Shown here one piece after another: positions 21,821-64,000 of a stretch of DNA of 64,000 nt (the stretch's first letter is position 1; each line of letters starts with the position of its first letter). Where the stretch lies: positions 79,234-143,233 of the forward strand of contig JAEELD010000009.1 in assembly GCA_016288695.1 (NCBI GenBank), written 5' to 3'. Origin of the DNA: Mycoplasmataceae bacterium. Lineage in GTDB: Bacteria; Bacillota_I; Bacilli_A; Mycoplasmatales; Mycoplasmoidaceae. The translations under genes were made by a program, and so were the position numbers. Under the pieces are notes generated by a model. It did no database searches. It saw only the letters and a program-made list of their open reading frames with translations, and had not been told where the DNA came from.

Positions 21821-23389
21821 TTATTTTTCTATGCTTAGTCTTTGATAGATAGGCTTGGAAATATCAACTTTATGATTATTTAATGTTGAAAAATCCAAAA
21901 TTGAATCAACATTGCATAAATTTAAAAAGTTAAATTGTTTTTTAGCTATTTCTGAACCATTTGACAAAATTGGGGAAACAGAAAATATCAAAATACGTGC
22001 TAGATTTGCTACTATGTTCAAAAAATTATCCAATCTATCTTTTAAATTTTCTTTTTTTAACATTCATGGCTTTGTTTCCTCTATATATTTGTTAAATAAT
22101 GAATTGACTTCCATGACCTTATTTAATAATAAATCAAATCTAAAATCTGACACATATTTATCAATGTTTTTAATTAAATCTTTTGCCTGATTTATAACAT
22201 TTTGCTCAAAATCTGTAATTAATGCAAAATTGATTTCTGGAATAATGCCTCCATTATATTTATTTAACAAACCTAACGAACGAGATATAAAATTACCAAA
22301 ATTATTAGCTAAATCATTATTGTAAGTCATAATAAATAATTTGTGTGTGAAAATTCCATCATTAATAATTGGTATGTTTTTTAACAAAAAATACTTTAAA
22401 GAATCTGCCCCATATTTTTCAACATATAAAAATGGGTCAATTACATTGCCAAGTGATTTAGACATCTTCCCTTTATCAGTTATTATCCAACCATGTGAAA
22501 TTATTTTAGATGGTAATCTTAACTTCATACAATGAAGCATTATTGGCCAATAAATTGCATGAAATCTAGTAATTTCCTTACCAATTACATGAATTATCTC
22601 GGTTTTTTCATCCTCTCAAAAAATGTTAAAATTATTGGCATTAACTTGTTTATACCCTAAACCTGTTAAATATGCAAATAATGCATCAATCCATACATAA
22701 ATTACGTGATTTTTGTTTTCTTTAACCTTAACTCCTCAACTCATGGATGTCCTTGTTATAGACAAATCATCAATTCCTTTATTTACAAAATTATTCATAA
22801 TTTCTTTCATTCTCTCATTAGGAAATATAAAATTCTGATTTTCTTTAAAAAAAGTTTCCAATCATTTTTGATATTTTTTAAATTTAAAAAAATAAGTTTC
22901 TTCATGCTTCTCAACTAATTTGTGGCCAATTTTGCAAAGTAATTCACCATCATCACCATGTATTGCATCTTTTTCTTTATAATTTTCTTCACACTGAACA
23001 CAATATAACCCTTTTCACACATCTAAATAAATATCTTCATTTTTATAAAAATTACTAAAAACATTTTGAACAACTAAGGTGTGATTTTGATCTGTTGTCC
23101 TTACAAAGCCATCAAAAAAAATCCCTAATTCATCCCATAAAATTTTAAAGTTTGAACTTATTTGATCAACAAAATCTTGTGGTTCCATATTTGATGATTT
23201 AGCTTTGTCATTAATTTTTTGACCATGTTCATCAAGTCCTGATAATAAAAATACTTTATGCCCAAACAATCTTTTATATTTAGCAAAAGTATCTGCTAAT
23301 ATGGAGGTATAAGCATGCCCGATGTGTGGTTTGCCTGATGCATAATATATTGGTGTTGTAATGTAATATTTTTTTTTAAAAAACTTCAT
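21821..23389 (-). CDS. metG: methionyl-tRNA synthetase
   Basis: YYITTPIYYASGKPHIGHAYTSILAD, DEHGQKI, SKSLGN (KMSKS region), 522 aa. Confidence 0.96.
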
Positions 23390-61533: not shown

Positions 61534-62523
61534 ATGAGTAAAGTTGCAATTTTAGGAACAGGTGCTTGAGGAACTGCATTAGCTAATACATTGTTAGCAA
61601 ACAATCATGATGTAGCTATGTGGGGGATAGATGAGAAAGAGATAAGTGATTTAAAAAAATCAATTAATTGTAAGTATTTTGGTAAAGCAAAATTAGTTAA
61701 AAAATTAGCATTAGTCTGCATGGATATAAAAATGATTGTTGATTTTAAACCAAATTTTATTATCATTGCTGTTCCATCTATATATATTGAACAGACTTTA
61801 AGTAAATTTATTGATATTTTAAAAAACAGACCTATTATCATAAATGTGGCAAAAGGTCTTAATTTGAAAACAGATAAGACTTGATCATTAACTATAGAAA
61901 AAATAATAAATAAAAAAGCTAATGGTTTAGTTACTTTAATAGGTCCAAGTTTTGCATATGATGTTTTTTTTAAGCATAAAACAATAGTTAATACAGTATC
62001 TAGAGATATAAAAAAAGCTCAGAAAGTAGCAAAAATATTTAATAATTCATTTTTTCGATGTGTATCAATTACAGATGTTTATGGTGCTGAAATAATAAGT
62101 GCTTTAAAAAATGTTATGGCAATTGGGAGTGGGATTATTTTTTCACAAAATCATTCAATCAATACACGCTCTGCCGTTTTAGCCCAAATAACAAAGGAAA
62201 TTTTTCGGATTTTAACAATAGCAGGAGGTAAGAACACCACTTTATATGAGTTTTGTGGGATTGGTGATATATTTTTAACATGCACAGACACAAAATCAAG
62301 AAATTTTTCGTTTGGTATTTTGGTTGGAAAAAAGGGTATAAAAAATGCATTGGAGCAAAATAAAAATAAAACAGTGGAGGGATATTGAGCTACAAAAATT
62401 GCATATGATATTATTAAAAAGCATAATATAGATGCTCCAGTAATAACAAACATTTATAATATTTTGTACAACAACAGAGATGCAAAAGTATTTGCTAAAG
62501 AATTTATTAAGAGTTTTAGATAA
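61534..62523 (+). CDS. gpsA: glycerol-3-phosphate dehydrogenase (NAD(P)+)
   Basis: VAILGTGAWGTALANTLL, VAKGLNLKT, GPSFAYDV, SALKNVMAIGSGI, GIGDIFLTCTDTKSRNFSFG; joined through UGA. Confidence 0.94.
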
Positions 62524-63031
62524 TTTTTTTTATTGTTTCAATTAAGTTTAGGATTCCTGGAAAGACAATTGTTAATTCATATCCAATTGTCTCTATGTCT
62601 TTTTCACTAATTGTTTTTTTGCTTTTTTCTTTTACATATTTAAGTATTTCATCAATCGTTATTAAGTAATATTTGTTTAGTTTATAAAAATGAACAATCA
62701 AAAAACATAATGTGTTAAATTTGTTCTTAGCAGCTATTAAAAATGATAATTGGTGTTCTTTTATTGAGTTAAGACTAAAAGCAGAATTTATTGTTTGTTT
62801 TGCTTCAAATTCTATGTGTCTCCCCATATAATTGCCAGTATAATCAACTGTTGATTTTGAACATATTTGACCAATAAATTTTTTTTGGTCTAACATATTT
62901 AATATTTTAAATGGGATATGTCTTTTTTCGAAATATGCAATAGATTTATCAGCGTAATAAGATATTGTTCGACTAATTATCTCTTCTAAATACATCCCTT
63001 TGTTAGATGAAATATGAGTAAAGTACTTCAT
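62516..63031 (-). CDS. recU: RecU-family Holliday junction resolvase
   Basis: NKGMYLEEIISRTISYY, STVDYTGNYMGRHIEFEAKQT, KEHQLSFLIAAK. Confidence 0.85.
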   Translation of the reverse strand: MKYFTHISSNKGMYLEEIISRTISYYADKSIAYFEKRHIPFKILNMLDQKKFIGQICSKSTVDYTGNYMGRHIEFEAKQTINSAFSLNSIKEHQLSFLIAAKNKFNTLCFLIVHFYKLNKYYLITIDEILKYVKEKSKKTISEKDIETIGYELTIVFPGILNLIETIKKII

Positions 63032-63139
63032 AATACTTAATAATATGGATATTTGTTCAAACTATTAAATTAAATTTTAACTTGTTAAATCTAATTTCCT
63101 TCTGCTACAAATAAAATAAATATAATTTTGTTGGGAGGG

Positions 63140-63157: not shown

Positions 63158-63183
63158 TCTTATTTGATAAGGAGTTTATATAT

Positions 63184-64000
63184 ATGACAAAAAAAAATTC
63201 TTTTAGGATTAATCCCTTTATCATTGTGCTCAATAATAGAACCTACTTGTAATGCTAGTAGTTCATTATTGAATAGTGTTAAGGCTTCTAATGAAGATGA
63301 AAAGGGAATTAGTTTTGAAAATCTTGAATACATATACCATAGTGGGGTTATTAACTATTATCGATTAGATAAAAAACAACAAATTGAGATTGATAATCAG
63401 ATTAAGGAAGAAAAATCTGAATTTTATGCTAATTTTTTAGATAAATTTGATTATTTTTATAAAAATAAAGATTTAAAAATAAGAGAAAGATATACAAAAA
63501 TTAATGAAATTTGTTATACGGCATCATTGAAAATTGTTGATTTCATTTTAGTTAAGGAAGATTTAAACAACCAAATAAAAAGCACAAATGAGGTTAAATC
63601 AAGTAATAGGATAAGTGAGGTAGTAAACTTTTGCAAAAATAATTATTTACTTTATGATGAAGGCTCTGATTTAATTGATAAAGCTATGATAGAAGAATCA
63701 TTTTTTGCTGCTTCGAAGTCAGTTATAATTTTAAACACAAGTTTGATTTTAAAAAAATTCTTAAAGTCTGTAGGAAAAACTAAAGAAAATAAGGAAAAAT
63801 TAGATTCAATTTATGTTAATAAGAAAGTTTCAATTGATGAGCTTTATCAAGAAGGAAAATTAAAAGTTGGTCAAGATTTAACTGAATATGTAAAAAATAA
63901 TGAATTGGACATTAATTATGAACATGAAAAATCTCAATTTTTGTTGCCAAATTTCCATGATTTTGAATATAAAGATAAATTTGACTTATATGTAAAGATT
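63184..64000 (+). pseudogene. putative secreted/surface protein, out of frame at A9 tract; continues past window
   Basis: SD AAGGAG, ATGAC(A)9; the ATG frame stops within ~25 codons, the shifted frame is open to the window end with signal peptide ILLGLIPLSLCSIIEPTCNASS then a >250-codon hydrophilic body. Confidence 0.65.

Follow-up and report, generated by a model that had tools for sequence, protein, structure and literature searches.

A nine-A frameshift in one member of an apparently species-restricted Mollicute membrane-protein family: a candidate Vaa-like switch

Introduction

Expression of Vaa in Mycoplasma hominis depends on the length of an A tract in the gene; eight A residues give the ON state, seven or nine give the OFF state, and switching takes place at 10^-3 to 10^-4 (PMC524362). 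In Mycoplasma fermentans, phase variation of P78 comes about by frameshifting within a poly(A) tract in the 5′ part of the gene (PMC2831843). At Vmm-type lipoproteins of the Mycoplasma mycoides cluster, a poly-TA tract is located in the promoter region (PMC3053259).

The window analysed here, a stretch of 64,000 nucleotides from the genome of a Mycoplasmataceae bacterium, ends in a gene for which Vaa would be the closest precedent, through likeness in mechanism and not by descent. As in Vaa, an A tract lies in the 5′ coding region, eight A residues are in frame and nine out of frame, and the protein is of a surface type in a Mollicute (PMC524362). Vaa is a single-copy gene with demonstrated switching, whereas the window gene has multi-pass paralogues, seven members in all, for which switching is proposed from sequence; the family also has no detectable sequence relation to any named one. 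P78 is similar in that a 5′ poly(A) tract shifts the frame (PMC2831843), but the P78 tract is of seven bases and lies in an ABC transporter subunit gene, whereas here the family is an orphan. The Vmm-type genes have (TA)n of differing length ahead of surface-protein genes, as seen here (PMC3053259), but in their promoters; in the present family the repeat lies between the Shine-Dalgarno sequence and the ATG, so any effect would be translational. The first-pass annotation had invoked homopolymer slippage as an antigen switch of Mollicutes, and M. hominis vaa is an exact precedent for it (PMC524362).

Results and Discussion

The start region of the window gene

Between 63169 and 63200 the window reads AAGGAG, a 9-nt spacer, ATG at 63184, AC, A9 and TTC (Table 1), the arrangement that had been described from the sequence at first. 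The quick stop claimed for the ATG frame with nine As was found after 22 codons, its translation being MTKKNSFRINPFIIVLNNRTYL-stop. The frame reached with eight As, said to be open to the window edge, runs for 268 codons without a stop under translation table 4 when entered at 63197. Many intact genes of this genome need TGA to be read as Trp, as in Mollicutes. Position 64000 is also where the contig (C13) ends, and the truncation of the gene is therefore due to the assembly as well as to the window.

A leader hairpin between the putative -10 element and the Shine-Dalgarno sequence was also considered. Its energy was not clearly below that of shuffled sequences in most copies (z -0.1 to -2.2), and since it lies this near to the controls, no hairpin is claimed as a feature.

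Table 1. Coordinates of features at and near the start of the window gene.
Feature	Position in window	Strand	Remarks
A9 tract	63189..63197	+	same place is A8 in four paralogues, interrupted tracts in two
ATG frame as assembled	63184..63252	+	22 codons, then stop
Shine-Dalgarno sequence AAGGAG	63169..63174	+	
TATATAT run within Shine-Dalgarno-to-ATG spacer	63177..63183	+	5 to 17 nt in paralogues
Putative -10 element TATAAT	63121..63126	+	similar position in most paralogues; consensus by eye
Upstream TTG, in frame with the long frame through A9	63164..63166	+	possible weak alternative start, without clear Shine-Dalgarno
Open downstream frame	63197..64000	+	268 codons to contig end; homologous to paralogue residues 5 to about 276
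recU	62516..63031	-	left-hand neighbour, synteny anchor
gpsA	61534..62523	+	anchor for fetching the equivalent region in congeners

A seven-member family of membrane proteins

When this genome was searched at the DNA and protein levels, the 5′ ends and the 3′ ends of one gene family came up seven times each; its proteins are about 865 residues long. The assembly contains two copies in full (872 and 863 aa, on contigs C18 and C8), and a third becomes a single frame of 869 aa once C18 is closed across its 141-base end overlap; the remaining copies are cut by contig ends. Paralogues with A8 or A9 runs, for which the first-pass annotation had proposed a search, are thus at hand. A8 follows ATGAC directly and in frame in four paralogues, two others have interrupted tracts, also in frame (AAAAAAGA in one and AAAGAAGA in the other), and A9 is seen only in the window copy. 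Of the seven genes, only the window copy is out of frame. The contrast between in-frame A8 and out-of-frame A9 is one across paralogues, not between alleles of one gene.

The family proteins begin with MTKKILLGLIPLSLCSIIEPTCNA, which resembles a signal segment; the next 480 or so residues are hydrophilic, for the most part conserved, and would make up the ectodomain. About five hydrophobic segments per protein are found near residues 514-585, 707-737 and 794-861. Mean identity between copies is 0.75-0.99 in the conserved blocks, with dN/dS of 0.13-0.27, and 0.12-0.4 in the membrane segments and the loop between them; dN/dS in the variable blocks (residues about 500-580 and 705-872) is 0.5-0.95. 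The membrane segments therefore appear to diverge quickly, by diversifying or relaxed change. Conserved and hypervariable parts side by side, as in the multigene families Vlp, Vsp, Vpma and VlhA, are present here in seven copies. The product of the family may be surface-exposed.

The signal peptide claimed at first corresponds to the signal-like N-terminus of the family, but no match to signal peptidase I (PF10502) was found in this 89% complete genome, and processing of the signal sequence is therefore putative. Signal-like N-termini are present on many proteins despite the missing PF10502 match; incompleteness, divergence or true absence could account for it. A canonical lipobox was absent on inspection, Cys15 following Leu and Cys22 following Thr and not Gly, Ala or Ser.

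No match to the family was obtained in Pfam or NCBIfam up to E 1 or in the PDB, and PHROGs gave nothing useful. These empty searches speak against a known protein family as its identity, and they give no support to descent from a named mycoplasma antigen family, as no sequence homology to one came up in them. A 12-row profile of all copies found no relatives in 35 other congeners (E up to 1), 15 genomes from the order's other genera gave no match in a single-protein search, and a pattern scan of a wider collection of genome contigs (genome_contigs), which reaches close relatives only, found none either. The predicted structure was unusable (pLDDT 38). On these comparisons the family is apparently a species-restricted orphan of multi-pass membrane proteins with a signal-like N-terminus. 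Neither the family nor its hypervariable membrane segments, nor the (TA)n tract described below, had been noticed in the first-pass annotation.

The A tract and the genome background

A pure A tract in the first codons, a feature of genes of the Vaa and P78 type, is present in the window copy as A9 directly after ATGAC. In this genome 86% of Lys codons are AAA, and A8 after the start arises because Thr-Lys-Lys-Ile in preferred codons yields it. In 4 of 22 ordinary genes of the window, A8 or more is found no further than 33 nt from the start; metG, dnaN and a trkA homologue are among the four. The window holds 15 A/T runs of 9 or more, and 70 of 80 runs of 8 or more are inside intact ORFs. Thus A8 or longer at ordinary starts, together with two paralogues lacking a pure tract, makes the A tract no diagnostic signal, and it was rejected as a signature; it is mutable but does not mark the family. 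A9 alone is unremarkable by chance. For such a run to break the frame is unusual, and it stands out because elsewhere these runs mostly sit in intact ORFs and the other six paralogues are in frame.

metG itself, a reverse-strand gene (21821-23389), has an in-frame A9 at 23369-23377, a few codons from its start. This tract is a natural control for read-level stutter and suggests that such tracts are tolerated in housekeeping genes.

The window gene is best explained as a Vaa-like slippage-switchable surface gene caught out of frame, to which we give a probability of about 0.5. The window end would be the 5′ third of one member of the seven-gene family, put out of frame by nine A where the in-frame paralogues have eight or an interrupted tract. 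The allele would most likely be a slipped-strand OFF state, eight A being ON and nine A OFF, with slippage as the presumed cause; it may be reversible by a change in tract length, as in M. hominis Vaa and M. fermentans P78. The gene would lie within a family whose membrane segments also diverge quickly. The phase-variable surface protein suggested at first is plausible and supported in part: the real +1 frameshift against in-frame paralogues, the membrane or surface-type family and the TGA=Trp genome stand. The tract itself lends that suggestion little, as start-proximal A8/A9 is ordinary. Three findings are evidence against this explanation: tract purity is not conserved, as two of seven paralogues have interrupted tracts; start-proximal A8 or more is common in ordinary genes, following from Lys codon usage; and signal peptidase I had no match in the genome.

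The gene could also be leaky and not OFF, transcription slippage at A9 or a start at the TTG at 63164 giving some full-length protein at lowered expression. Insertion and deletion by RNA polymerase grow with the length of A/T runs in E. coli and Buchnera (PMC5574713), and frameshifted poly-A genes of Blochmannia may be rescued by slippage (PMC3017870). The long frame, read backwards through A9, is open from 63155 and contains this TTG. Slippage, however, is mostly insertion and not deletion (PMC5574713), and the TTG has no clear Shine-Dalgarno sequence, so that leaky expression is improbable.

Integrity of the rest of the gene

In two congeners (loci L098 and L102), compared over the order gpsA-recU-tlyA-dinB, recU on the minus strand is followed directly by tlyA and dinB on the plus strand, and there is no family gene at this position. 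The present genome has recU next to the 5′ end of the window copy, where C13 stops; tlyA and dinB lie on contig C17, behind a family 3′ end with which that contig opens. The two stubs match in orientation and coordinate, C13 ending at about residue 276 and C17 starting at about residue 292, a gap of about 15 codons. Because synteny, orientation and residue coordinates agree, C17:1-1704 is likely the C-terminal half of the window gene.

Downstream decay beyond the window had been named in the first-pass annotation as the mark of a dead pseudogene; this likely C-terminal half is intact, with 567 codons without a stop and dN/dS of 0.16-0.25 in its conserved blocks. The part within the window has dN/dS of 0.07-0.26 against the paralogues, inside the range of in-frame pairs, and its singleton changes are 8 synonymous and 5 nonsynonymous. 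The open frame and the low dN/dS in the window part and in the half assigned to it on C17 therefore exclude an old pseudogene.

A recent loss of function has to be weighed here. A chance +1 slip in a Lys-codon A8 would have left one of seven redundant paralogues a young pseudogene or a fixed null, and switching would not be under selection. Gene starts with A8 are commonplace in this genome, the remaining six copies, all in frame, could cover for the lost one, and tract purity is lost in two paralogues. With the rest of the gene intact and constrained, however, the lesion must be very young, and the diversifying or relaxed membrane segments and a second repeat at the start site are as expected of contingency genes. 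We consider such a loss unlikely, although it deserves serious attention.

The window gene likely adds a further case to a known kind of switch, this one from an orphan family and with an unusual second repeat in the initiation spacer. If the switching is true, poly-A phase variation reaches an uncultured Mollicute lineage and an orphan multi-pass family.

A TA repeat in the initiation spacer

The TA run between the Shine-Dalgarno GGAG and the ATG ranges from 5 to 17 nt across family copies, and the resulting Shine-Dalgarno-to-ATG spacers are of 7, 9, 9, 9, 14, 15 and 18 nt. The pattern GGAG-N(0-16)-TATATATATG occurs five times genome-wide, always at family starts, and its reversed control had no match in the whole genome. 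Only four TA runs in the genome reach 13 nt or more, and three of these are at family starts. Within the Shine-Dalgarno spacer (TA)n is confined to the family genome-wide and is a more specific signature of it than the A tract. The fourth long TA run lies outside the family on contig C15 (6284-6302; L115 about 1502-1520), upstream of a hairpin which a T run follows.

Spacing between the Shine-Dalgarno sequence and the ATG in the range of 7-18 nt normally alters translation initiation. Changes in TA length could therefore tune output, and drift in (TA)n would probably shift the translation rate of each copy in 2-nt steps. We tentatively suggest, and hold it doubtful as a whole, that the family carries a dual-repeat start-codon module, in which the (TA)n spacer would act as a translational rheostat and the coding A8/A9 as an on/off switch, across seven species-restricted multi-pass surface proteins with hypervariable membrane segments. 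A literature search limited to open access found no report of a TA tract in the Shine-Dalgarno spacer. If the switching is true, this would also be a compact case of spacer-length variation and frame switching at one start codon. Tuning of translation by the TA tract, should it take place, would be a control point distinct from the promoter TA tracts of the M. mycoides cluster.

The assembly

The draft genome comprises 606,749 bases in 27 contigs. The A9 could in principle be an assembly or base-calling error, or a chimaeric consensus, built near the contig end from reads of different paralogues or strains: the genome is a draft, the gene runs into a contig end, and its repeat family interrupts the assembly at five contig pairs. 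Contig ends overlap by exactly 141 bases in C18 with itself, C19 with itself and C25 with C26, which points to a short-read assembler with k=141; a homopolymer error at nine A is thus unlikely, indels at such runs being rare in short-read k-mer assembly. Moreover, about 800 nt separate the tract from the contig end, the flanks of the window copy differ from every paralogue, and other long A/T runs mostly sit in intact ORFs (70/80, as above). An error of either kind is very improbable.

The ends of C18 (L009, 1-5582) share the 141-base overlap, so that the contig is self-closing, and the family genes on it number exactly two, both complete and in tandem. The 141-mer has no exact copy in the other family-bearing contigs, the best having 12 mismatches. 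C18 would be one of two things, a tandem array that has collapsed or a circle cut out when tandem copies recombined. The second self-closing contig, C19 (L091, 1-5380), carries a Rep_OBD replication protein (PF01719) and several orphan ORFs, and is taken to be a small circular replicon, a plasmid or phage-like, that was binned with the genome.
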